Below, piece by piece: positions 2-58,654 of a stretch of 64,000 bases of DNA. The notes under the pieces are model-generated. The model was not told the DNA's origin. It was given only the letters and a program-made list of their open reading frames with translations, and made no database searches. The DNA is taken from positions 1,122,789 to 1,186,788 of the forward strand of contig NZ_CP037968.1 in assembly GCF_019633745.1 (NCBI RefSeq), in the 5' to 3' direction. The position numbers were made by a program, and so were the translations under genes. This stretch comes from Methanofollis formosanus (GTDB taxonomy: Archaea > Halobacteriota > Methanomicrobia > Methanomicrobiales > Methanofollaceae). How positions within the stretch are numbered: the first letter of the stretch is position 1; each line of letters opens with the position of its first letter.

Positions 2-745
2 GTCGGCCCGACGACCCCTCTCACTCAGCGCGGCACCCGCCTCATCTGCTGGTGGATGCTCATTTTTCTTGCCCTCGTCCCGGCAGGAGCGGTCGGGCTG
101 CAGGTCGGCGTGGAGGGGGATCTGCCCGGCGAAGTCGCCGAAGGGGAAGAAGTAAACTTCACGCTCACCCTCGCCGGCCTCCCGCCTGCGGCCGACGACC
201 TGGTCCTCGAGACCGATCTCGTCCCTGAGGACGGCACGCCGCTCTTCTCGGTTGAAGGAACAGAGACCGTCTCCAACAGCACCCCCTTCATCGTCCCCCT
301 CCCCGCGGGGAACGGGCCGCTGAAGATCGCCGTCACCGGCCAGGCCCCCAGGGCCGCGGATGTGCGGCAGTGCGGGGCGGTCACCCTCACCACCTATGAC
401 CCCAGGCTGAGCGGCTATGCCTACTACCGGGTAAGGTTCACCGACGACGAAGGCAACCGCCTGGCCGAGAGCGACACACGAGTCTTTGCTCTGAAGGTCG
501 AGGCCATCGAGGAGTTCAACGAGAAACTGGGAGGGATCTCGGACCCCTTCATGGACGCCTACCTCCAAGACCTCTTCGACAAAGGGCTTGTCGGGGAGGC
601 GAACGCCCTTGCCGATCACGAACTCGCGAAAGAATCGACGGTCCCGACCCTCTGGGCGGTCGCGGGCATCGTCCTCGCCGCAGTCCTGGCCCTGGTCATC
701 GGGATCAGGATCGGCGGACGAGAATATGAGGTGAGCGAAGAATGA
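2..745 (+). CDS. Single-pass surface protein of the tubulin-like operon, 5' partial
   Basis: The reading frame is open to the window edge, so the N-terminus may lie outside; the first internal Met is at base 56. A hydrophobic stretch (ICWWMLIFLALVPAGAVGL) looks like a signal sequence. An extracellular beta-rich region of about 180 residues with an N-glycosylation sequon follows, then a C-terminal membrane helix (about 25 residues) and a short acidic tail. I recognise no named domain. The stop overlaps the start of the tubulin-like gene by an ATGA, so the two are probably translationally coupled. By context it may be an outward-facing partner of the membrane-associated cytoskeletal system downstream. 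Confidence 0.7.
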   Translation, partial: VGPTTPLTQRGTRLICWWMLIFLALVPAGAVGLQVGVEGDLPGEVAEGEEVNFTLTLAGLPPAADDLVLETDLVPEDGTPLFSVEGTETVSNSTPFIVPLPAGNGPLKIAVTGQAPRAADVRQCGAVTLTTYDPRLSGYAYYRVRFTDDEGNRLAESDTRVFALKVEAIEEFNEKLGGISDPFMDAYLQDLFDKGLVGEANALADHELAKESTVPTLWAVAGIVLAAVLALVIGIRIGGREYEVSEE

Positions 746-3700
746 AGCGTGAGAGAGAGACGGGGACCGCCCTCCAGCTCCCGATCGACCTGACCCTCTG
801 CGGTCTTGGCGGGTGCGGGAAAAAACTGGTCGGCGAGATCTGCAGACAGGAATGGTTCCTGGACTATTACTCCAGGACAGGCCGGCACCTGAGCATCTAT
901 ACGATGGACACCGACGCCAACGAGCGGTTCCAGGACGAAGCCATGCGGGAGAGGGTGCTTGGGATCGTCGACTCGCTGGGCGGCCGGGGCAACATCGAGT
1001 ACGACACCCTGTACCTCCCGAACCTCGCAAACATCAGCCAGGTCTCCGACCTCGCCGGCCTGGACATCGCCGAGAAGATCAAAGGGAGCAAGTCCGAACC
1101 CGGCACCGCGGTCTGGTGGCTGAACGATCCTTCGGAAGACGGCCTGCACTTCGACGAACTCAGGACCATCGACCCCTTCGTCACCGACGACTTCGGCGGC
1201 GGGGTGCACCGGCGGCGGGCGATCTCCAAGGCGATCCTGTATAAGGTGATCAACGAGGGACAGGCGGGCGGGTTTCCCATGTTCTCGACGATGGGCACGA
1301 CAGTGCTTGTCGTCGGACTCGGCGGGGGAACCGGTTCGGGGATGTTCATCGACCTCGCCCGGTATATCAGGGGACAACGGGGCGAGACCGCCCAGATATG
1401 GCTGTATATCGTCCTCCCGACCACCATGGAAGGCGAGAAGGAACAGCTCAACGCCGCCGTCGCCCTGACCGAACTGGAATATCTCAACCAGAACGAACGC
1501 CTCTTCAACTACATCGTCCTCACGCCACTCGGCCCGACCGGCTACAAGAAGGGCGAGGAGGCACGGGAGGAGGTGCACGAGTTCGACGCCGTCTTCCCGT
1601 ACATCTTCACCAACTTCCTCCACCTCGAGAAGGGCGACATCAACATCGGAGACGCCAAGAAGCCGTACGCCTCGTTCATCATCGCCGACGCCCATGTCAT
1701 CTCCTATCCGGTCGAGGAGTTGCGGCGCTTCAAGGAGGAGTACGAGGTGGTCGTCGAAGAACTGGAGGAGATCACCGCCAGCAGGAAACACCTCAACCAG
1801 GCGGTCGGCGACCTCCTGGACGAGGCCGGCCTGACCGCGGTGCTCCCGCCGACCAGAAGCGACTTCGACTATATCAAAAAGGAGTTCGGGACCATCGAGA
1901 AGGTCTGGAGGAACGAGATCGGCAGGTTGCTCGACTACCAGACCGGCAGCGCCGTCGAGTTCTTCATCGAGAACAATGTGCCGCCTGAACTCCGTCCCGA
2001 CATGGTCAGGACCTACGACGACCTCGTCGCCTTTCTCGCCAGGGTCAGGACCTTCGCCCAGGCGGTGAAAGAGGACGAACTCAAGGACGACCTCGACCGA
2101 AAAATCTTCCGGAGTCTCCCTGAGTCGTTCCATGCCCTTGAGACCACGGCCAGACTTTTCAGGCGGGTCGCCGCCATCGACGACGAGGCGATGCACGCCG
2201 CCCTGATGGAGACCCTGAAAGGGCGCGAGGAGATGGCGCCGTTCGTGAGGGAGGTGGACGGCAGACGAAAAGATGTCCTGGACGAGGCCCATCTCCTCGA
2301 AACGGCCCTGGCGGAGAAGAAGGGCGACCTCGACCGGATGGAGGCGCGGAGAGAGGAGATCGACCGTACCGTCGAGCACACCCTCTCTGACGTCGACATC
2401 ATGCTCGACCAGTTCGTCACCCTGAAAGAGAAGATCAGGGTGATCGAGGGGCCGGAGAAGGGGTTGCAGGAGTCGATCAACAGGAGCGTCGAGGCCCTCC
2501 AGAAGAAGAAGGTCAGGGCCGTGGACAAAGAGGGATGGCTCAGGGCCGCGGGGGTCGCCGAGGTCCAGCGGGAGATCGCGGCGTTGTCCCATGAGAGCGG
2601 CGAACGGCTCGACGACCTGGCCGACCTCGTCGAGGCGATCGCCCTCTACCACTATTACGCGATGCGGGTGGCACAGATCGACGCCGGCGGCATCGGCACC
2701 AGAATCGTCGGGTTCATCAACAAAAAACCGGCACGAGAACGGAAAAAATTCGAGGCGCTGAGACGAGAGAAGGAGGAGTTCATCAAGGCGAATGCGAAAT
2801 ACTGGAACCTCGAGATCGATCCTTCCTTTGAACTCAGGTTCCCTCATGACTTCATCGTCGCCGGTCTGCAGCGGCGGGCCGAGGAACTGCGGAGAAAGAT
2901 CACCGAGACCCTCTTCGCCCAACTCCCGCTCGACGACCCGGAGGGGGTTGCGGCCCTCTTCGAGGCCGGCGAGCGCGGGACGATCAGGGCGGCCCTCAGG
3001 GACCGCCTCACCGCAGCGGCCCTCAGACAGGAGGGGTTCACCGAGCGGTACGCCGCATACGAAGCGGAGTACTCGGAACTCAGCAGACAGACCCGGGAGA
3101 AGCAGGAGATGGTCCGCGCCCTCGAGGAGACCGAAGAGGTGGCCGACCGCACCTTCCCGCATAGGCGGGAGATCAACCGGCATTACCGGACCTTCTCGGA
3201 TACCATCGTCAGGATCAACGAGGAGAAGGCCTACGGGAAACACACCCGGAAAGGTCTCTATATGACAAACTTCGGGGACATCAACCCCAGGATCCTCTCG
3301 CTCATCCATGAAGACTCCTCATTGTGGGACCTGGACTGGGAAGACAACGGCCGCAAAGAACTGGACAAACTGGTGGCCGAGATCACCGGGACCTACAAAC
3401 ATCTCATCGACAACTACAAACTCGGCATCCACAACCTGATGGTCCCGATCAGCGCGACCGAACGGTGGAACTTCGGGAAGGTCGGTCTGATCGTCGCTTC
3501 GCCCTCGGACTACATCGCACGGACCATCGCGAGCGCCCGGGTGGGGGACCTGATGACCCGCGAGGTCAACGAGACCCTTGCCCTCAGGAACATCAACGAC
3601 TCCCGTCTGGTCACGCACCACCACACCCGGCCCTGGGAGATCGCCCTCACCTTCGTCGCCTCCGCCTCGTTCCTGGACAATGTCTCGCCACTCATCGCCG

Positions 3701-3915
3701 GAGGCGGATACTGGGAGATCTACGAGAAGAACCGGGACAACATCCTTCACCATGTCCTCCTGATGCACGAAGGCAAATATATCACCAGAGAACGTCTTCT
3801 CGACCTGAAAGATGCCGGAAAACTCTCGAACCTGGAGAAAAAAGGGAACAATATCTCTGATGCGGTCCTGGATCTCTACACGATCAAGGGGATCCGGGAG
3901 GCACTGCCCAGATGA
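742..3915 (+). CDS. Large tubulin/FtsZ-like GTPase (Tubulin_2 / FtsZl family)
   Basis: The 1057-residue protein has an N-terminal tubulin-like fold. A T1-like loop CGLGGCGKKLV lies at about residues 20-30, a T2-like DTDAN at about 56-60, and the tubulin signature GGGTGSG at 194-200, followed by a helix and strand as in FtsZ T4. About 300 residues of GTPase domain are followed by a long charged helical region with heptads (about 430-700), likely coiled coil, and a C-terminal globular part. It is far longer than FtsZ (about 380) or CetZ. An FtsZ-type T7 NxDxx(D/E) loop was not found by eye, so hydrolysis on polymerisation is uncertain. It overlaps both neighbours by ATGA. Role in membrane remodelling is inferred from the FtsZl family and its membrane GTPase neighbour. 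Confidence 0.85.
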   Translation: MKRERETGTALQLPIDLTLCGLGGCGKKLVGEICRQEWFLDYYSRTGRHLSIYTMDTDANERFQDEAMRERVLGIVDSLGGRGNIEYDTLYLPNLANISQVSDLAGLDIAEKIKGSKSEPGTAVWWLNDPSEDGLHFDELRTIDPFVTDDFGGGVHRRRAISKAILYKVINEGQAGGFPMFSTMGTTVLVVGLGGGTGSGMFIDLARYIRGQRGETAQIWLYIVLPTTMEGEKEQLNAAVALTELEYLNQNERLFNYIVLTPLGPTGYKKGEEAREEVHEFDAVFPYIFTNFLHLEKGDINIGDAKKPYASFIIADAHVISYPVEELRRFKEEYEVVVEELEEITASRKHLNQAVGDLLDEAGLTAVLPPTRSDFDYIKKEFGTIEKVWRNEIGRLLDYQTGSAVEFFIENNVPPELRPDMVRTYDDLVAFLARVRTFAQAVKEDELKDDLDRKIFRSLPESFHALETTARLFRRVAAIDDEAMHAALMETLKGREEMAPFVREVDGRRKDVLDEAHLLETALAEKKGDLDRMEARREEIDRTVEHTLSDVDIMLDQFVTLKEKIRVIEGPEKGLQESINRSVEALQKKKVRAVDKEGWLRAAGVAEVQREIAALSHESGERLDDLADLVEAIALYHYYAMRVAQIDAGGIGTRIVGFINKKPARERKKFEALRREKEEFIKANAKYWNLEIDPSFELRFPHDFIVAGLQRRAEELRRKITETLFAQLPLDDPEGVAALFEAGERGTIRAALRDRLTAAALRQEGFTERYAAYEAEYSELSRQTREKQEMVRALEETEEVADRTFPHRREINRHYRTFSDTIVRINEEKAYGKHTRKGLYMTNFGDINPRILSLIHEDSSLWDLDWEDNGRKELDKLVAEITGTYKHLIDNYKLGIHNLMVPISATERWNFGKVGLIVASPSDYIARTIASARVGDLMTREVNETLALRNINDSRLVTHHHTRPWEIALTFVASASFLDNVSPLIAGGGYWEIYEKNRDNILHHVLLMHEGKYITRERLLDLKDAGKLSNLEKKGNNISDAVLDLYTIKGIREALPR

Positions 3916-6706: not shown

Positions 6707-6935
6707 GATTGCGCAATTCAGGCGTGCAATAAAGAACCATACAGATTTTGTTGGGATCGTCCCCGGGCGGTGACGACGAAGAAGGCGGCGGATGGATTGA
6801 TGAACGGGCTGGATCTTCTCTGGTTGTGTGAAACGGCAGGTCGGCACCCAGATGTCTGGACTGTAGATGTCCTTGATCACGCTCATCATGACGGAACGAT
6901 GGGCAAGAACACCGCTCAATCGCGGCCTCGCACCG

Positions 6936-7069
6936 GGGGGCGGCGATGAAACCGGATCTTCCAGATGCCCTCTCGAGGACGGGGACCCGCCCACACGCTG
7001 AAGCCCAGCTCAGAACAATGATCAATCGCGTATGCTTGCACCCCTGGTTCATGTCCGATTCTACAAAAC
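6936..7069 (+). repeat. Right half of a dispersed composite intergenic repeat
   Basis: This contains the GC-rich core (GGGGGGCGGCGATGAAACC) and ends in the family's right arm CGTATGCTTG..GGTTCATG..CCGATTCTACAAAAC. Its right end faces the left end of the next copy (7081) across only about 11 bases. At most other sites this end instead abuts a gene. Confidence 0.7.
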
Positions 7070-7080
7070 TAAAAAAGGCC

Positions 7081-7990
7081 CCTGTAAAATTTGGCATGAG
7101 ATGAGAGGAAGCCTCAAGCATACGGAATGAAAATTTCTCGTCGCTTGTTCTCTCATATTGAGACAGGAGAATCGGCGGAGACCTCAATCCTTCGCCGCAC
7201 CCGCCCCATCTCCTCGCGAGACGGCAGGAACGATCATGCGAGAGGGGGCGGCACGTTTGGATCATCACCCCGGCCTCTTCGTCATGACCCCGAAGATAGA
7301 ACCGGGACGAGAGATAGTTGCTCTTTTTTTCAGCGGAGCACACCGACCCTTGCCGTCCCCCGTCCTATCTTCTCGCGAGATAACAGAAAAGATTCAATGA
7401 TCGGGGACGGCCTTTCTGATCGTCATGCCGCCCTGTCCCCGTGACCCCGGAGATAGAACCTGGACATGAGAGGGCCGATCCATTTGCAGCGGGAGCACAC
7501 AATCTTCGCCGCCCCCCGTCTATCTTCTCGCGAGATGGCAGAACAGACGCTGTGACAGGGGGCGGCACGTTTGGATCATCACGCCGGCCTCCCCGTCATG
7601 ATCCCGAAGATAGAACCGGGACATGAGAGGGCCAATCCATTTTCGGAGGGAACACGCGTGATGCCACCCTCACCCTATCTCCTCGCGAGATGGCAGGAAC
7701 GATCGTACGAGAGGGGGCGACACGTTTGGATCATCACGCCTTCCCCCCCGTCATGACCCCGAAGATAGACCCCGGACAGGAGAGGAGCGATCATTCATCA
7801 GCAGGAGTACACCACTTCATCGCCGTCCCCCCTATCCTCACGTGAGATGACGAAACAGACTCGATGATGGAGGGGCGGCGATGGAGCGAGGTATCAACCA
7901 GTTCTCCTGTCTTAATATGGGAGATCAAGCGACGAGAAATCTTCATCGCGTATGCTTGAACCTCAGGTTCATCCCCGATTCTACAGGGCC
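7081..7990. repeat. Full composite repeat: inverted terminal arms around a tandem core
   Basis: The left arm (7081-7190) and right arm (about 7870-7990) are inverted copies. They share TGTAaAATytGGCATGA, CAAGCATACG, TGAAAATTTCTCGTCGCTTG and AGACAGGAGAA against the reverse of the right arm. Between them lie four-plus tandem units. The right end stops 16 bases before the 3' end of the DUF1786 gene. It has no protein-coding capacity: frames inside it differ between units. Confidence 0.75.
7190..7880. repeat. 155-160 bp tandem repeat, about 4.4 units
   Basis: The landmark ATCTTCTCGCGAGA or a close variant recurs at 7207, 7367, 7522, 7677 and 7833, giving periods of 160, 155, 155 and 156. Each unit also carries GAAGATAGAACCGGGACA, the reverse of the CTATCTTC part, so every unit can form a long stem. 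The same 155-base period is seen again at 58214-58480. Confidence 0.85.
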
Positions 7991-7997
7991 AAAAAAA
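7991..7997 (-). terminator. T-run terminator of the DUF1786/nrdD operon
   Basis: There are seven A on the plus strand (seven T on the transcript strand) 10 bases after the stop of the gene ending at 8007. Confidence 0.45.
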
Positions 7998-8006
7998 GAG
8001 AAGACC

Positions 8007-9038
8007 TCAGATCCCGCCCCGGCGTCGCCGCCATACCTCGAGCAGGCCGAAGCACCCGGTAAGCATCATGTCCCCGAAGGGCGCCGCCTGATAGGCGTCG
8101 GGCAGGAGACGGGCGCGGTTCGGGCCGGTGACCGCGATCGGCGTCTCGCCAATCGCTTCCCTCACGGCGGCGCCGTGCCCGCCGTCCTCGAAGACCTCCT
8201 CGTTGGTGAGGGTGCCGCCCTGCAGTTTCCCGAGGAAATGGGCGAGCCGTGCGGGGCCGAGGGAGGAGGTGTGGTGCTCGAAGAGCCCCAGCACCTCGGT
8301 GCCCTGCAGGGTGAAGGCGAGCGTGTGACCGTTGCCGACATTGACCAGAGTCACGCCGTCGCCGTCGGCCTGCTCCCTGACCCAGGGGTCGAGGAGAGCG
8401 CCGATCGCCGCCACCGCCCCAGTGTCGGTGACCAGGGCGCCGGGCGCCGCCGAGAGGACGGCCTGCATCCTGCTCATCGCCGGGTACGGCGGGTCGGGGG
8501 CCAGGGCGAAGAGGTCCCAGTTCCCTTCTTCCAGGAGTCTCCGGAAGACCGAGAAACGGAAGACCCGGTTCGAGATCTTCGGGGAGAACCCGTGGTCCTG
8601 GACGGCGATCGCCACCCGTTCGGGATAGGAGACGCCGAAGAGCGAGAGGGCGGTCTGGAGTTCGTGCGCCATATAGTCCCCGGTCCGCACCGTGACCGCG
8701 CCTTCCGGCGCCTCGTCGGCGACTTCGACTCCGAAGGCCGCCACCCGTGCCGGGTCGTCGTGGACCGTCAGGGCGGCCTCGGGCGTGGCCGTCACCCTGA
8801 CGCCTGCGGCCAGGGCCTCCCGCACCGCGAGCACGCTCCCGCCCCCGCCCATGCACGCACCCTCCAGATGGATGGGGCGGCCGGACTTGGCGGCCGCACG
8901 GACGGCTTTGCCGACGACGACCGTCGGTGATGGGAGGACCAGTTTGACCGAGTTCTCGACCGGTTCGTCGGGATCGTACAGAAGGACGTCCTGTGTCCCC
9001 CGCCCGACATCGATGGCAAGGACCCTCCTGTCAACCAT
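8007..9038 (-). CDS. DUF1786 protein, ASKHA-like fold
   Basis: The 343-residue protein starts MVDRRVLAIDVGRGTQD, which resembles the phosphate-1 loop of the actin/sugar-kinase/Hsp70 fold; a second glycine-rich loop LVNVGNGHT lies near residue 235. This matches the DUF1786 family of methanogens, often labelled as a pyruvate formate-lyase activating enzyme-like protein although it lacks the radical-SAM CxxxCxxC motif. The ATG lies 3 bases beyond the nrdD stop, so it is the third gene of an nrdH-nrdD-DUF1786 operon. Its link to the glycyl-radical reductase is contextual only; biochemical activity is unknown. Confidence 0.75.
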   Translation of the reverse strand: MVDRRVLAIDVGRGTQDVLLYDPDEPVENSVKLVLPSPTVVVGKAVRAAAKSGRPIHLEGACMGGGGSVLAVREALAAGVRVTATPEAALTVHDDPARVAAFGVEVADEAPEGAVTVRTGDYMAHELQTALSLFGVSYPERVAIAVQDHGFSPKISNRVFRFSVFRRLLEEGNWDLFALAPDPPYPAMSRMQAVLSAAPGALVTDTGAVAAIGALLDPWVREQADGDGVTLVNVGNGHTLAFTLQGTEVLGLFEHHTSSLGPARLAHFLGKLQGGTLTNEEVFEDGGHGAAVREAIGETPIAVTGPNRARLLPDAYQAAPFGDMMLTGCFGLLEVWRRRRGGI

Positions 9039-9041
9039 CGA

Positions 9042-11207
9042 TCACGCCTCCAGCTTTCCCCTGACCTGCGGATCGCCGTGGTATTCCTTGAACCGTTTCA
9101 GGGAGACGGTCAGGTCGCGGGTAAAGGCAAAGTAGCCGATCTGCGTCTTTTTGCAGAGGTTCATCGCCATGTCGTACAGCCCCCGCGGGTCGGGCCGCGC
9201 CTCGCCGAGCCAGATATGGAAGATGTTGCCGCCGTCGACGATCGGGAAGAAGACGTGCTCCACCTCCATCCGTTTGGTGAGCGGGACATCGGCCCCGGGC
9301 GAGACATGGGTGCCGTTGGTGTAGTAGACCGGGAGGTCCCGCGTCGTCCCGCAGTCGGCGACCGCCGTCTCCGCGTCGCCCTGCATCACGCCGAGCGCCG
9401 CCTCCCTGAACTGGTCGTCGAGCATGTCCGCGACCGCAAAGCGCTGCCCGGTCGTCTCGGCCGGCGTCCGCGCCAGGGCGATGGTCATCCCGTTCTTCTC
9501 GGAGAGCGTCCGGGCATAGAGTTCCATTTCGGTCATCGCCCGCACCGCCATCTTGAAGGCCGCCTTCGACTCGTGGATCTGGTGACCGGTGTGGTACTGG
9601 ACCATCTCGTTCACCCCCACGACCCCGATGGTGTAGACCAGGCTTTCGAGGTCGACAGCCACCGCGCCGCGCTCGCCGGTCTGCGGGTCTTTCGGCCGCT
9701 GCATCGCAAAGGGCATCCGGCCGTTCGTCCTGATCGTCTCCATCCACCGGCGTTTGACCTTGAAGACCTCGACGGCCACGTCCATCAGGGCGCGGAGTTC
9801 GGCGAAGAGCCGTTCGTCCTCGCCTTCGGCCTTGAAGGCGGCACGCGGGCAGTTGACCGAGACGACCTCCCAGGAGCCCATCGAGAAGTGCGAACCGTCC
9901 TTGAAGTAGAGTTTCTCCTCGAAGTGGTCGTCCTTCTCGTAGGTGGAGGAGAACTGGTAGGCGCAGCACTGGTAGCACGAGATCCCTTTCCCCGCGCCGC
10001 GGTACGGCGGGAGCTGGTTGTCGTAGTAGGGTGTCCCGAACTTGGAGGCCAGTTCGAAGGTGAGGAGATAGAGGTCCTGGTAGGACGGAAGGTCGGGGTG
10101 CGTACGGTTGAACGCCTCGTCCTCCTCCATGAAGTCGGGTTCGATGGAGATCTCGGGCTTCGGGAAGGAGAAGGGTTTCCCCCAGTAGTCGCCCTCCAGC
10201 ATCACCTCCATCATCGCCTTGAAGAGGAGACGGACCTCGCGCTCGAACTCGCCGTAGGTCCGGAGAGGCGCCTGTCGACCGTCCCAGACCTTGCCCTTGA
10301 AGACGCAGGGCTTCTCCCGCCAGAGCGTCGGGACGCCAGGCGAGAGCTGGACCGAGGAGAAGACGAGCTGTCCGCCGCGGGCGACCATCATCTGGGTCAT
10401 CTCGTAGACGAACATCTGCATCAACTGCCTCATCTCACCGTATTCCATTCCCTCGAAGTACGGGGCCATGAAGGTGAGGAAGTTGTAGTAGCCCTGCCCG
10501 CCGGCGAAGTTGGTCTGGGCGCTCCCGAGGGCCTTGACCGCATGGAGGACCGCGACCTCGGCGCGTCTGGCCGGCCCGGCGACCGAGGCCTTGGTGCCGT
10601 TGCCGTCGGGCATCAGCCCGTAGTAGAAGAAGTAGCGGAGATCCCAGTCCTGGCAGAACGGGCGCGTACCAAAGTATTCCAGGTCATGGATATGGAGGTC
10701 GCCGGCCAGGTGGCGGTCGGCGAGGTCGGGTGGGAGCTGGAGGAGGTACTGCTCCTTGGAGATCTTGTCGGCCTTCTTCTTATGCGAGGTCTCGGCGTTC
10801 TCCTGGAGGTTGGCGTTGTCGTGGGCCTCGAAGCCCCGGCCGACGTCGATGAGGTGGGCGTCGTAGACCGGGGTGCCGACCCTGGTGCAGACGTTCCTGT
10901 ACTCCACCATCCCCCTCTCCAGGAAGACCATATTGACGATCTCGCGGATCAAGGCACCTGAAAGGAAACGCAGGCCCAGTTTGCGGATCCGCTCCTCGAC
11001 CGCCTTGGCGATCTCATCGGCCTGCTCTTTCGTCGCCGGTGCATAGCCGTAGAAATGTTCGACAAGCCTGGTCTCGTTCTCGATCTGGGCGACGATCTTG
11101 GCGCGGTCCCACTCGAAGATGTGCCCCTCGGTGGAGCGGACCTTCGGGAGGGGCGGGACGAAGACACCGTCAAGCGTCGCCTGTTTGCTCTGCCGGTCCA
11201 CCTTCAC
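9042..11207 (-). CDS. nrdD: Anaerobic (class III) ribonucleoside-triphosphate reductase, C-terminus atypical
   Basis: The 721-residue product has an N-terminal ATP-cone region (about 10-100) and the archaeal NrdD core: DLHIHDLEYF, RPFCQDWDLRYFFYYGL, GGQGYYNFLTF and a Cys cluster SCYQCCAYQ for the active-site finger loop. NrdD makes dNTP precursors from NTPs using a glycyl radical. It ends about 20 residues after IGYFAFTRDLT. Neither the usual four-Cys zinc site nor an RVxGY glycyl-radical motif is visible, and the next gene begins 3 bases later. This could be a truncation or a divergent tail. The glutaredoxin-like gene just upstream suits the redoxin-dependent NrdD subtype of methanogens. Confidence 0.88.
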   Translation of the reverse strand: MKVDRQSKQATLDGVFVPPLPKVRSTEGHIFEWDRAKIVAQIENETRLVEHFYGYAPATKEQADEIAKAVEERIRKLGLRFLSGALIREIVNMVFLERGMVEYRNVCTRVGTPVYDAHLIDVGRGFEAHDNANLQENAETSHKKKADKISKEQYLLQLPPDLADRHLAGDLHIHDLEYFGTRPFCQDWDLRYFFYYGLMPDGNGTKASVAGPARRAEVAVLHAVKALGSAQTNFAGGQGYYNFLTFMAPYFEGMEYGEMRQLMQMFVYEMTQMMVARGGQLVFSSVQLSPGVPTLWREKPCVFKGKVWDGRQAPLRTYGEFEREVRLLFKAMMEVMLEGDYWGKPFSFPKPEISIEPDFMEEDEAFNRTHPDLPSYQDLYLLTFELASKFGTPYYDNQLPPYRGAGKGISCYQCCAYQFSSTYEKDDHFEEKLYFKDGSHFSMGSWEVVSVNCPRAAFKAEGEDERLFAELRALMDVAVEVFKVKRRWMETIRTNGRMPFAMQRPKDPQTGERGAVAVDLESLVYTIGVVGVNEMVQYHTGHQIHESKAAFKMAVRAMTEMELYARTLSEKNGMTIALARTPAETTGQRFAVADMLDDQFREAALGVMQGDAETAVADCGTTRDLPVYYTNGTHVSPGADVPLTKRMEVEHVFFPIVDGGNIFHIWLGEARPDPRGLYDMAMNLCKKTQIGYFAFTRDLTVSLKRFKEYHGDPQVRGKLEA

Positions 11208-13566: not shown

Positions 13567-13950
13567 GTGTAAAATTCCTCAGGACGGTCGTCCCTGTGGG
13601 GTGCTGGCCCCCCCTCCGGGCCTTACGCATCAGGGTAGAGGCAGGGGACGACACCCCCCCTCTTCAGGTGTATCAATGACGCCTTCTCAGGGGCCCAGGG
13701 GCCGGACCCCCGGCGCGTATGATGAGAGAAGGTGTGATGATCAGAGGTGCCACCCCGAATCGTCGAGATTTCCCTGCCATCTTGCGCCGGGGGGGAACCC
13801 CCCGGACCCCCCACGACGAAGATAGCCGGGGGGCGGCGATTGCGTAAGGTGCCCATCGATTCTCCTGTCTTGAAAAAAGAGCGATCAAGCGACGAGAAAT
13901 GTTCATCGCATATGCTTGAACCGCAGGTTCATGCAAAATTCTACAAAAGC
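13567..13950. repeat. Composite intergenic repeat, degenerate left arm
   Basis: A G-rich hairpin module (CGCCGGGGGGGAACCCCCCG, about 13785-13805) precedes ACGAAGATAG and a GGCGGCGAT core border. The right arm at 13884-13950 reads ATCAAGCGACGAGAAATG, CATATGCTTGAACCGCAGG and ATTCTACAAAAGCC. Its end lies about 110 bases from the 3' end of glnK. No gene is seen in this 508-base gap. Confidence 0.7.
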
Positions 13951-14060
13951 CGAAAAATGTTCGCGCCCTGGCCACTTCTGAGATCTGTTCAGGGACAATT
14001 TTCGGGGCCCATTCCTGGACCCCCAGAAACTGGTGAGAGAACAATTGGTGGAGAGAAGGC

Positions 14061-16296: not shown

Positions 16297-16370
16297 AAGC
16301 CCGTTCGGACCCCACATATTGGATCGGCGAGATGATTTCCGGCAATGCCCGGGAATAAAACAGAAATATG

Positions 16371-16640
16371 ACCTTGTAGAATTGCCCATGAACCCGGGCT
16401 CAAGCATACGGGATGAAAATTTCTCGTTGCTTGATCGTTCTTTTTCAAGAGAGGAGAATCGGTGGGGATCGTGTTTCATCGCCGCCCCCACCTATCTTCG
16501 TCGTGGGGGGTCCGGGGGGTTTCCCCCGGCGCGAGATGGCGGTGAAAATTCTGCGATGAGGGCGGCATTCTGATCATCACACTGCCCTCCGTCAATCGCG
16601 CCGGGGGAGCTGCCCCCTGACCCCCGGGATGACGACAGGG
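16371..16640. repeat. Composite intergenic repeat, left arm and G-rich core
   Basis: The left arm CTTGTAGAATTGCCCATGAA, CAAGCATACGGGATGAAAAT and TCTCGTTGCTTG starts 75 bases after the zinc-ribbon stop. It is followed by CTATCTTCGTCGTGGGGGG, a G-rich hairpin, GCGAGATGGCGGTGAAAATT and GATCATCAC, then a second hairpin module. No right arm is recognised. From 16641 to 16869 I see no gene or clear element. Confidence 0.7.
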
Positions 16641-16869
16641 ACGGGAAGGCGCCTTTGCTGATCCTGAAAAAGAGGAATACCGTCCTCTCCCCCATATTCT
16701 GCAAGGAGAACCGGAAGAGAGGCATGCTGAATTTCTGGAAGGTAGTGTTTCGGTTCGAGAGAGTATTCAAGTCCCAGAGAGTTCTGGAATTTGCTCCCCG
16801 GTTCACCACTAAAATCCCCCCCGCAAAAAAAGAGAGACAATGTGGCAGGCCAGAGCCCCGCCACTCCCC

Positions 16870-31534: not shown

Positions 31535-31543
31535 TTTTTTTTT
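31535..31543 (+). terminator. T9 terminator after the cysteine protease gene
   Basis: Nine consecutive T start 4 bases after the stop codon. Confidence 0.55.
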
Positions 31544-31544
31544 G

Positions 31545-31743
31545 CCCTGGAGAATCGGGCATGAACCCCTGGCCCAAGCATATGGGATGAATGTTGAAAT
31601 CATCCGGGTTGGTCTCTCAGCGGGGGGCGGCGATGGAACAAGGCCTCCACCAGTCCTCCTGTCTTGAAAAAGAGAGAGCAAGCGGCGAAAAATGTTCATC
31701 GCGTATGTTTGAGCCAGAGGTTCATGCCCGATTCTACAAAGTC
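31545..31743. repeat. Short composite repeat with both terminal arms
   Basis: The left arm GCCCTGGAGAATCGGGCATG..CAAGCATATG and right arm GCGTATGTTTGAGCCAGAGG..CATGCCCGATTCTACAAAG are inverted. The centre has only GGGGGGCGGCGATGGAACAA and CTCCTGTCTTGAAAAAGAGA. At about 200 bases this is the most compact two-armed copy in the window. It fills the gap between two genes. Confidence 0.75.
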
Positions 31744-36140: not shown

Positions 36141-36155
36141 AGGGGGACGCCGGAG

Positions 36156-36232
36156 AATTACGATGAGGTCATCCCAGAACTCTCCGACCTTGCTCTATGA
36201 CGGGAAGAAGTTTCTGAAGTCCGGCGTCGTTC
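36156..36232 (+). repeat. 77-bp inverted repeat, left copy (pair at 38612-38688)
   Basis: The sequence from AATTACGATGAGGTCATCCC to TCCGGCGTCGTT reappears in reverse complement at 38612-38688 with only about four differences. It flanks a 2.4-kb segment containing gdhA and repeat DNA. In one frame it reads YDEVIPELSDLAL-stop, possibly a copied gene end. Confidence 0.8.
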
Positions 36233-36494
36233 ATGAGATTCTGCCGCCCTGCCCCCATCTTCGTCGTGGGGGTCCGGGGGGCGGCAATGAAGTGGTGGTC
36301 CCATGCGGTGTCCTGCTCAAAGAGGGAACAAGGATCCATGCACCGGAGACCACCAAGAATTTTCAATAGCGTATGCTTGAACCCGGGGTTCATGACGAAT
36401 TACTATGAAAATCACCCTGAAGATCTGCTATGAAAGATTTTCATTCGGTATGCTTGAGGCGTCCTCTCACCTCATGCCGAATTCTACAAGCCCG
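36233..36494 (+). repeat. Composite repeat core with two successive right arms
   Basis: The G-rich core (CATCTTCGTCGTGGGGGTCC) is followed by the segment CGGCAATGAAGTGGTGGTCC, then a right arm at 36356-36404 and a second at 36433-36494 ending CCGAATTCTACAAGCC. The second has a longer inner stem (TGAGG..CCTCA). The end lies 42 bases from the gdhA stop. A seven-A run (36497-36503) is a likely gdhA terminator. Confidence 0.7.
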
Positions 36495-36535
36495 AGAAAA
36501 AAAGAGTGCGTGAATTGTATATGCTGGAGATCGGC

Positions 36536-38016: not shown

Positions 38017-38610
38017 GGGCCCTGTTGAATCAACCATGAGGCGGGAAGACACCTCAGGCAGACCATATGAAAACCGTTCGAGGAGCTCTTCCGGATGGGG
38101 AGAGACTCCGGTCATGCTTCTCTCGACATTTTCCCCTTCACGATATGGCGGGGAAGGGGACATCACACATTCGCCGCCCCGGATCCCGGGCACGAAGATT
38201 GAACCGGGAAGGCACCATTGATGAATCTGAAGAGGGGGGCGCCGCCCTCGTCCCAATCCCGATGCTGGGAAACCCGGGGTGGCCAACCCCCCACAGAGAT
38301 AACCATCCAGGGCTTTGTAGAATTCACCATGAACCCGCGGCTCAAGCATACGCGATGAACATTTTTCGTCGCTTGCTCTCTCTTTTCGGCTATGTAGAAA
38401 TCATCTTGATGGTTCTCTTCGACGGGGGGCTGGCCGCCCCCCGTCGTGGGGGGTTCCGGGGGGTAAAGCCCCCCGGCGCGAGACGGCGGTGAAGAGTCTG
38501 CGATTGTAGGCGGCGCATCGGATCATCACGCCTTCCGAAACCCGATGCCGGGGGCGCTGCCCCCGGACCCCGGGGACGAAGATAGCGACGGGGCGGCAGC
38601 AATCTCTTGA
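38017..38610. repeat. Composite repeats between gdhA and the Mrp operon
   Basis: A degenerate left arm with long inner stem occurs at 38017-38075. A clear left arm follows at 38310-38376 (GGCTTTGTAGAATTCACCAT, CAAGCATACGCGATGAAC, CGTCGCTTGCTCTC), then G-rich hairpins at 38423-38480 and 38545-38575. The 1-kb gap from 37781 to 38783 holds no gene I can support. Confidence 0.7.
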
Positions 38611-38611
38611 A

Positions 38612-38688
38612 CGACGCCGTACTTCAGAAACTTCTTCCCGTCATAGAGCAAGGCCGGAGAGTTCTGGGATGACCTCATGGTGAATTCC
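38612..38688 (-). repeat. 77-bp inverted repeat, right copy (pair at 36156-36232)
   Basis: This is the reverse complement of the left copy across GACGGGAAGAAGTTTCTGAA and CATCCCAGAACTCTCC. It continues into a partial right arm of the dispersed repeat (TCATGGTGAATTCCACAAAG). Confidence 0.8.
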
Positions 38689-38754
38689 ACAAAGCCCACG
38701 AAGAGTTCTATGGACCCGCCCGAACCGAACGTCTCATGAACGATTCAACCGATC

Positions 38755-44790: not shown

Positions 44791-44857
44791 CCTGGTACTA
44801 TGGTGGGGGCCGCCCCCAGATATGGATGCTGGTCAGGGATAATGGGCGTGAAGATGA

Positions 44858-45365
44858 GCTTTGTAGAATTCGGCATGAGGCGAGCGCCCCGCCTCAAGCA
44901 TACGCGATGAAAATATCAGATCAGATCTGGATCGGTTCTTGACCCTCATCCTTACGAACAAGGAGCGAATCGAAGTCGAGCATCGTGCCGCCCCTCGGCT
45001 ATCTTCGTCGTGGGGGGTCCGGGGGGTTTCCCCCCGGCGCGAGACAGCAGGGAAATCTCAACGATTAGGCGCGGCAGATCCATCAGAGGGATTTTCTATC
45101 CTCTGCGTATCGGCTTCAACGGGATATGGCGAGTTCAAACTCTCATGGAAACCTGAAGAGAGGATCGTCTGGATTATTTTCATGGTAATTCGGCATGAAA
45201 CCCGGGTTCAAGCATACGCGATGAAAATTTCTCTGAGCAGTGTTTCAGGGTGTGGGCTGATCCCTCTCAATCGCCGCCGCCCCCCCCGGCGCGAGACGGC
45301 GGTAAAAATTCTGCGATGAGGGCGGCACATCCGATCAGCACGCCTTCCCACATCTTCACGCCGGG
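44858..45365. repeat. Nested composite repeats upstream of rnhA
   Basis: A left arm at 44858-44917 (TTTGTAGAATTCGGCATGAG, CAAGCATACGCGATGAAAAT) is followed by a G-rich module near 45000-45040. An inverted copy of the ATGAAAATnATCCnGACGAT module lies at about 45080-45190. A second left arm at 45183-45232 (CGGCATGAAACCCGGGTTCA) is followed by another GC-rich core. The 594-base gap between genes is almost wholly repeat DNA. Confidence 0.7.
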
Positions 45366-45384
45366 GGCAGAGCCCCTCTCCCCT

Positions 45385-50340: not shown

Positions 50341-50882
50341 GGCTTTGTAGAAATCCTATTCTGGAGTGTCTCGTCCGGGGGGCTGCCGCCCCCCGGTCCC
50401 CCTGCCATTAGGATAGGGGGTGGAGGGCAGTCTCCTCTTCAAAATGCAGGTTTGCCCCTTTGAGGTCCAATCCTGAGCGGGGGTCCGGGGGCGTAGTCCC
50501 CCGGCTAAATCATTAGGAAGGTAGTGGATCTCTGTGTACCTCTTCATAAGATCAGGGATACATCAACTCGAGTATGAGGATTTACCATGAAAATGATCCT
50601 GACGATGAACCCGAGAGGTCTGCATGGGGATTTCTTCTCACCGGAATCCCTCACAACTGATATACGAAGTACAGAATCTCCTTCAGAATGATCGGCCGCC
50701 CTTCAATCGCAGAATCTTTTCTGGTATTTCGCGAGATGATAGGGCGGGGGCGGCAATGAAGTGACGGTCCCATCTGGTGTCCTGCTCTGAAGAAGGAACA
50801 CGGATCCAAACACCCTGGAAAACCACGATCATTTTCATCCCGTATGCTTGAGCCCCAGGGTCATGCCCGATTCTACAGGGCC
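50341..50882. repeat. Composite intergenic repeat in a 1.1-kb gene-free gap
   Basis: A degenerate left end GGCTTTGTAGAAATCC is followed by G-rich hairpins (CCGGGGGGCTGCCGCCCCCC at about 50376; a second at 50477-50510). A TTTACCATGAAAATGATCC module lies at about 50580-50702, then a core and the right arm at 50826-50882 (CCCGTATGCTTGAGCCCCAG ... TTCTACAGGGCC). The right end stops 90 bases before the next gene. In 49875-50340 I see no gene; the DNA is more AT-rich. Confidence 0.7.
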
Positions 50883-55889: not shown

Positions 55890-55973
55890 AGTCGATCATG
55901 GGTGCGGCGATATATATCTGAATCGATATATTCGAATTTTTTCGCACTCTTCCTGGCGTATTCTGATATTGGA

Positions 55974-56703
55974 GCCCTTTAGAATCGGGCATGAAGAGGG
56001 GGCTCAAGCGTACGCGATTGAAAACTTTCTGAGCAGCGCTTCAGCGTGTGGGCGGATCCCTATCCTCGCGGCAGGGTATCTTGAAGACAGGGTTTCATCG
56101 CCGCCCCCCGGCGCGAGACGGTGGGGAAGATTTTTCAATTGAGGGCGGCACGCCTGATCATTCCATCACGTCTTCCCACATATTCGTCCCGGGGGCTCGG
56201 GAGCAGCGCCCCCGGCGTGATTCATGGAGGAAGGGGAAGGATTTCGTTCACAGGGGGTTTTGGTGATGAAAAGAGGATGTTTTACCATGAAAATGATCCT
56301 GACGATCATCTCTCCGTGTTTGCATGAGAGTTTGAATCCACCAAACGCTTTCAGGACTGGTACGCACAGTATAGATTCATCTTCTGAATGATCTGCCCTC
56401 TGCCTTCCCGGCCCTATCGCCATTCCGGGGGTCCGGGGGCAGTGCCCCCGGCGCGGTGTTGCGGGAAGGCACGTCGATCTGATCGGCCGCCCTCATCGCA
56501 GGATCTTTCCCGCTGTCTCGCACCGGGGGGCTTTGCCCCCCGGACCCCCCACGACGAGGATAGACGGGGGCGGCAAGGAGGTGATGGCCCGAGGGAGGAT
56601 CCTGCTCCGACGAAGGAGCATGGATCCACACGCCCTCGAGACCAACGAGAATTTTCATCCCGTATGCTTGAACCCCACGTTCATGCCCGATTCTACAGAA
56701 CCA
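55974..56703. repeat. Two-armed composite repeat, 730 bp
   Basis: The left arm GAGCCCTTTAGAATCGGGCA..CAAGCGTACGCGATTG is followed by TTTCTGAGCAGCGCTTCAG, a GC core and a TTTACCATGAAAATGATCC module at about 56280. A second core follows with two G-rich hairpins (56418-56455, 56523-56550). The right arm at 56646-56703 reads CCCGTATGCTTGAACCCCAC..CATGCCCGATTCTACAGAA. A seven-A run at 56703-56709 lies just before the DNA methyltransferase stop and may be its terminator. Confidence 0.75.
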
Positions 56704-56712
56704 AAAAAATCT

Positions 56713-57942: not shown

Positions 57943-58118
57943 CAGAGAATGTCTCTCCCCCTGAGTACCTGAAGGCTTCGATCAGGGAGGGGATGGAAAG
58001 CCTCTTCACCGCTTCTCTGCGGGGGGGACGAACGCCCCCGGCGGAAGCATGAGGGAAGGCGTGATGATCGAGCGTGCCGCCCCCATCGTAGAATTTGTCC
58101 CGGGATCTCGCGCCAGGG

Positions 58119-58207
58119 GTTGCACCCCCGGACACCGCCGGAGAGGTTGTGACCGGCCTTGCGATCCTCACCTGGCACCGTTGCACCCCCGGACACCGCC
58201 GGAGAGG
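58119..58207. repeat. 28-bp direct repeats 61 bp apart
   Basis: The segment beginning GTTGCACCCCCGGACACCGC and ending CGGAGAGG occurs at 58119-58146 and 58180-58207 without mismatch. There are only two copies with unrelated spacing on either side, so this is not a CRISPR. Confidence 0.8.
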
Positions 58208-58213
58208 ATAGGT

Positions 58214-58480
58214 GGAAAAGATCCTGTGACGAGGGGACGGCACATTCTGATCATCACGCCGTTCTGACTTCATGACCCCAAAGATTGGAGCGAGACGGAG
58301 GAGGGACGATCATCACTCGACGGGATCACATGTGATGCCGTTCCCAGTCCTATCTTCTCGCGAAATACCAGAAAAGATCCACGAATGAGGAACGGCACAT
58401 TCTGATCACCACGCCGTTCTGACTTCATGACCCCGGAGATAGAACCCGAACGGGAAAGAGCCGTTCGTTTATCAGCGGGA
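58214..58480. repeat. Second locus of the 155-bp tandem repeat, about 1.7 units
   Basis: CACATTCTGATCA(T/C)CACGCCG begins at 58241 and again at 58396, a spacing of 155 bases. CTATCTTCTCGCGAAATACC and GGAGATAGAACCCGAACGGG match the units at 7190-7880. The gap from 57943 to 58654 is otherwise gene-free and ends in a degenerate right arm (58566-58620, GGTATGCTTGAGGCGGGCC). Confidence 0.75.
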
Positions 58481-58654
58481 GCACGCCGCTCTTCGCGTGG
58501 GGGTTCCGGGGGGCGGTCAGCCCCCCGTCGAAGAGAACCGTCAGGAAGATCTCTCCAGAGCCGCAATCTGCTTCATCAGGTATGCTTGAGGCGGGCCCTC
58601 GACGCATGCCCGGTTCCCCAGCACTTCTTCCAGGAACGATTCCCCCCGCTCCGG

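Follow-up and report, generated by a model that had tools for sequence, protein, structure and literature searches.

A modular MITE family in Methanofollis formosanus with a candidate IS5-type partner

Prokaryotic MITEs are non-autonomous IS derivatives that rely on the transposase of full elements (PMC3852290). Two further kinds of described repeat invite comparison, namely REP/REPIN palindromes (PMC3733652, PMC3116915) and the recurrent quadruplex-forming motifs of Methanomicrobiaceae, which carry a TC(C/A) spacer in a Methanofollis strain (PMC8044849). The repeats described here come from a 64-kb stretch of Methanofollis formosanus DNA (the window), for which the original prediction had proposed a MITE-like family, a label that our analysis supports. 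Like prokaryotic MITEs, they are short and non-coding, carry terminal inverted repeats and target duplications, reach high copy number and have a partner IS; unlike typical prokaryotic MITEs, they are mosaics with interchangeable ends, tandem units of ~310 bp and nested elements rather than a single deletion derivative. Their first ~12 bases and their 8-bp footprint are those of IS5-family elements of the NF033579 type, which are represented by locus L183 and by elements of Methanofollis relatives with GGCTYTGTWGAAWYCC ends and exact 8-bp duplications. In contrast to L183, the MITEs are free of a transposase and have an unrelated interior, and such a transposase is linked to a MITE arm at locus L190 only. 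This is a new MITE family, ordinary in kind but unusually modular, with a strong candidate partner of IS5 type; no published description was found in the open literature, a coverage that leaves ISfinder and most subscription journals outside. With a probability of roughly 0.87, the repeats are a non-autonomous MITE family with a modular interior, on which IS5-family transposases act in trans. Family members measure ~240-1500 bp and lack a transposase of their own.

Within the window, both halves of the predicted arm were recovered at the places where arms had been listed. The halves TGTAGAATCGGGCATGAA and CAAGCATACGCGATGAAAAT each gave 11 matches at no more than three mismatches, against 0 in shuffles, and the remaining listed arms are diverged versions that can be read directly in the sequence. 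The repeats form ten intergenic clusters covering ~5 kb of the 64 kb. In the first (repeat coverage 6932-8013), a partial MITE on the minus strand (6932-7070), delimited by repeat coverage and ending in AGTTTTGTAGAATCGG, points its arm end (7021-7070) toward the next element. The latter is a plus-strand MITE at 7078-7990 with inverted arms at both ends (GCCCCTGTAAAA / GGCCCTGTAGAA), a target duplication TAAAAAAG/AAAAAAAG matching at 7/8 positions, and an interior in which a 155-bp unit is repeated 4.2 times in tandem (7185-7836). Two MITEs have one arm end and a GC-rich hairpin module each: 13679-13960 on the minus strand (arm 13899-13950, module 13798-13814) and 16353-16653 on the plus strand (arm from 16370, module 16503-16519). 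The two-armed element at 31543-31743 (plus strand; coverage 31531-31748) is a palindrome over its whole length, and the fold of the copy 31544-31742 runs from end to end (z = -7.5 relative to shuffles). The minus-strand MITE at 36153-36507 contains a terminal arm (36433-36493), an internal arm (36356) and, at 36165, a second terminal-repeat type, GAGGTCATCCCAGAACTC. A plus-strand composite of MITE copies spans 38017-38696; it contains two arms (38017 and 38310), one internal end (38388) and, at 38656-38676, a nested end of the second type. Its repeat coverage (38177-38684) leaves the arm at 38017 outside. Farther along are a plus-strand MITE at 44855-45376 with a terminal arm at 44857 and an internal tandem arm at 45183, a two-armed MITE at 55973-56702 (plus strand; coverage 55966-56712), and a decayed minus-strand copy at 58023-58608 with an arm at 58566 (coverage 58023-58151 and 58215-58608). 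The inverted pairs originally reported at 7081-7990, 31545-31743 and 55974-56703 are thus real, the first having the 7/8 target duplication and the second the end-to-end fold. A further pair had escaped the prediction: a complete 542-bp MITE at 50341-50882 (minus strand; coverage 50339-50889; fold z = -3.5) with two different end types, the other end carrying TGTAGAAATCC, and an exact 8-bp duplication, ATTTTCTT. The arms listed at 36356 and 45183 are present, but they are internal and start with ATTTTCATRGTAAT rather than TGTAGAAT. As predicted, the window holds no transposase: none was found among the 18 window proteins scanned, and all PF01609 hits of the genome lie outside it. An Rfam search of the window found no family.

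The TGTAGAAT end had been described as polar, nearly always facing the adjacent gene. It does face outward; however, it is the inner part of the terminal inverted repeat GGCTYTGTAGAA (~12 bp), which stands at both ends of full-length copies, and it faces the neighboring gene simply because terminal repeats face outward. When duplication lengths of 4-12 bp were tried on 89 candidate end pairs, a set gathered by similarity to the repeat and therefore leaning toward well-kept copies, 8-bp duplications matching at 7/8 or better occurred in 16 pairs against 1.2 expected, and exact ones in 9 against 0.4 expected; lengths of 4-7 and 9-12 bp gave no signal in these pairs. The targets are AT-rich and bounded by G/C, with the consensus S-W6-S outside the ends. 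Most copies have only one recognizable end, and a position-based sample of 17 stretches (340 kb of the same genome) yielded no further pair at 7/8, which indicates that many copies are old or rearranged. Empty orthologous sites, the other proposed test, were found as well, by matching the joined flanks of window copies against relatives. The joined flanks matched continuously for 44855-45376 and 58023-58608 in genome G001, and for 55966-56712 in G002, G005, G007, G008 and G010; the flanks at these three sites have decayed, and no clean duplication is readable there. At locus L041, which holds a 912-bp copy, G001 is gap-free across the site with base precision and contains one target copy, GAAATTAT, in place of the AAAATCCT and AAAATCTT of M. 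formosanus. This site shows insertion.

Searching with the arm, as had been suggested, revealed copies throughout the genome and the genus rather than in the window alone. The arm core TCAAGCATACNNNATGAAAA at no more than one mismatch has 157 + 122 = 279 matches genome-wide, with 0 for the reversed control, and it occurs in 9 of the 11 other Methanofollis genomes at 1-120 copies (0-120 over all 11). Across the order (232 genomes), only Methanofollis has the arm in high copy number; elsewhere it is sparse or absent. In G127, a genome of genus g24 in the same order, a variant core, mostly ACAAGCATACAAAATGAAAA, matches twelve times, which suggests a related repeat in another genus. The original prediction had allowed that the arms might be remnants of one larger duplicated gene. 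Such an origin, or a local repeat, would fit the tandem units taken alone, but hundreds of copies across genome and genus, precise insertions and the lack of a shared coding frame refute it.

The candidate partner was identified in the same genome. L183, found among the PF01609 hits, is an intact 1,008-bp IS with ends GGCTCTGTAGAATTCC/GGCCCTGTAGAAACCC, an exact 8-bp duplication, GAACAATC, and a frame that matches the NCBIfam IS5 family transposase model NF033579 at 237 bits against a cut-off of 140; the partner transposases reach 237 and 223 bits with this model and match PF01609 too. Cousins that share these ends and have exact 8-bp duplications were found in G002 and G003, where the frame is broken, and in G011, in three copies; the loci of this kind in relatives are L186, L198, L204, L207 and L210. 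L190 has a 328-aa transposase frame of the same type (69% identity), whose upstream end bears a MITE arm; no matching duplication is readable there. The 8-bp duplication suggests that the partner may belong to the ISH1 group. Partners of the IS1595, ISL3 and IS6 types were absent across 12 genomes of the genus. From these data we infer mobilization in trans: the IS5-family DDE transposases of full-size elements in the same genome would bind the MITE ends and move the MITEs. Alternatively, these could be true MITEs spread by a different transposase, now lost or undetected, with IS5-type ends that are merely alike. The match between MITE and IS amounts to the ~12-bp end sequence and the duplication length only, and no relative of the transposase was detected in G006, G007 and G008, although these genomes hold 40-108 arms. 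Against this stand the common end sequence and 8-bp duplication of IS and MITE in one genome and the union of MITE arm and transposase frame in L190, and we regard a different transposase as improbable. A second IS5-type element, 870 bp long with two overlapping ORFs and GAGNWYATCCCAAAA ends, was observed at L015 (201-1070) and L205 (1458-2327). Its copy in L015 is nested in a MITE, and this position, together with its own ends, ruled it out as the autonomous partner. Its end type recurs in window MITEs at 36165-36185 and 38656-38676; therefore, a second MITE family probably exists.

Returning to the family moved, on our reading, by IS5-type enzymes, its interiors combine three common MITE end types, of which the ~50-bp hairpin arm is the most frequent, in several pairings, with ~310-bp units in tandem and other IS5-type elements nested inside. 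The arm stands on 76 of 126 collected ends, and the others comprise two further MITE types (..AAAACATCCTCTTTTCATCACC and ..AAATCATCTTGATGG), IS ends and some chance matches. Copies with exact duplications pair arm with arm, arm with either other type, or both other types together. Within arrays, arms start with ATTTTCATGGTAAT and recur at ~310 bp, for example in L028. Insertion into older copies and recombination between copies may have built these patchwork interiors. It is also possible, albeit doubtful, that the hairpin arm of ~50-65 bp is a small unit in its own right, mobile or copied, which inserts into IS5-type ends just inside the terminal repeat. In its favor, the arm of L190 separates the terminal repeat from the IS interior, and internal arms begin with TTTTCATGG rather than with the terminal repeat. 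Moreover, G002 contains armless MITEs that share this terminal repeat, among them one of 279 bp with GC-rich hairpins. If so, the arm would parasitize MITEs and ISs and give unrelated interiors the same end. Directly after the stop codon of a DUF1786 gene, the window (7968-8007) has a GGCTCTGTAGAAT-type end, and the same arrangement occurs in L062 (11029-11180) with a different element inside; this may reflect either an old insertion common to both species or a hot spot for targeting.

The inner palindrome of the arm, GAACC..GGTTC, had been proposed to fold in RNA. A stem is present, with 84.6% of cells paired around a loop of variable length, and two pairs (20 cells) have changed on both sides, a value that no shuffle or slid control reached; two more measures, double-changed pairs and further pair types, were not above shuffles. 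The compensatory signal is thus partial, and action as RNA is unsupported. Since related copies can give such changes without selection, we read the stem as a maintained palindrome, which is not proof of RNA function. An outer arm helix (ATC/GAT) was rejected, as only 49% of its cells are paired. The arm also has GTAG beside an imperfect hairpin, occurs in paired inverted copies and is intergenic, all of which recall REP/REPIN palindromes, which a RAYT (Y1 tyrosine) transposase mobilizes; GTAG tagging of REPs is known (PMC3733652). The arm GTAG falls inside the inverted repeat GGCTYTGTAGAA. Clear 8-bp target duplications with terminal inverted repeats are the signature of a DDE transposon; they contradict a REP/REPIN origin and make it very improbable. 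Mobilization by a RAYT was ruled out by the absence of the Y1 transposase PF01797 from the genome, where control searches were positive.

A reading compatible with trans-mobilized MITEs holds that the elements spread by transposition and are now kept as functional sites, serving as terminators, mRNA-end hairpins or DNA-structure (G-quadruplex) elements. Such retention would agree with the intergenic placement, the long stable hairpins, the partial compensatory change in the arm stem and the likeness of the GC-rich hairpins to recurrent G-quadruplex motifs of the same archaeal family (PMC8044849). Nevertheless, presence at orthologous sites varies between species and gene orientation around the copies is near background, and we consider it unlikely. 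The hairpin GTGGGGGGTCCGGGGGG..CCCCCC, with its TCC spacer and intergenic location, resembles the published motifs, and all six occurrences of GTGGGGGGTCCGGGGGG in the window lie within MITEs. In a genome of genus g11, by contrast, five typical quadruplex motifs sit in a different repeat: no GGCTYTGTAGAA-like end lies within 700 bp of four of the five, and one has a single distant end-like match. The g11 repeats were accordingly rejected as the same element, most copies being seen without GGCTYTGTAGAA ends; unlike them, the GC-rich hairpins of M. formosanus and G002 are MITE cargo. In G057 (L263-L267), a quadruplex-type motif was observed within a longer conserved repeat containing GCAGTGGACCGTGGTGG.

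The MITEs also coincide with a rearrangement. The 4.4-kb segment 31742-36146 is inverted relative to G001, G006 and the covered part of G007, and both breakpoints in M. formosanus are MITEs (31543-31743 and 36153-36507). The corresponding junctions measure 9-33 bp in G001, without a MITE, and contain MITE sequence in G006. The simplest account is that recombination between the two inverted MITE copies flipped the segment. With gene orientations from a simple gene caller, gaps holding clusters were 16 tandem, 11 convergent and 3 divergent, compared with 75, 31 and 27 for all gaps. These counts are near background; a gene-orientation bias was rejected as weak, and cluster placement reflects at most mild avoidance of shared promoters. 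A cellular function of the MITEs is not supported. Elsewhere in the window, 742-3915 encodes a protein of 1057 aa that contains a GTPase domain of tubulin-like type (Tubulin_2, PF13809), and 9042-11207 an anaerobic ribonucleotide reductase of 721 aa. The reductases of relatives have in-frame insertions of ~1.3-1.4 kb at two positions (L062 7038-8383; L063 5558-6964 and 7654-9053; L064 5687-6954), with open frames of 1170, 1669 and 1161 aa; the insertions resemble inteins whose presence differs from species to species.

Taken together, a methanogen genus gains a MITE family that is well anchored, has a candidate partner, differs between species in the presence of copies and is linked to an inversion. 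GC-rich quadruplex-like repeats can be transposon cargo here, and functional readings of such motifs should therefore be controlled for this origin. With its freely combined ends, the family offers a testable case of MITE diversification.
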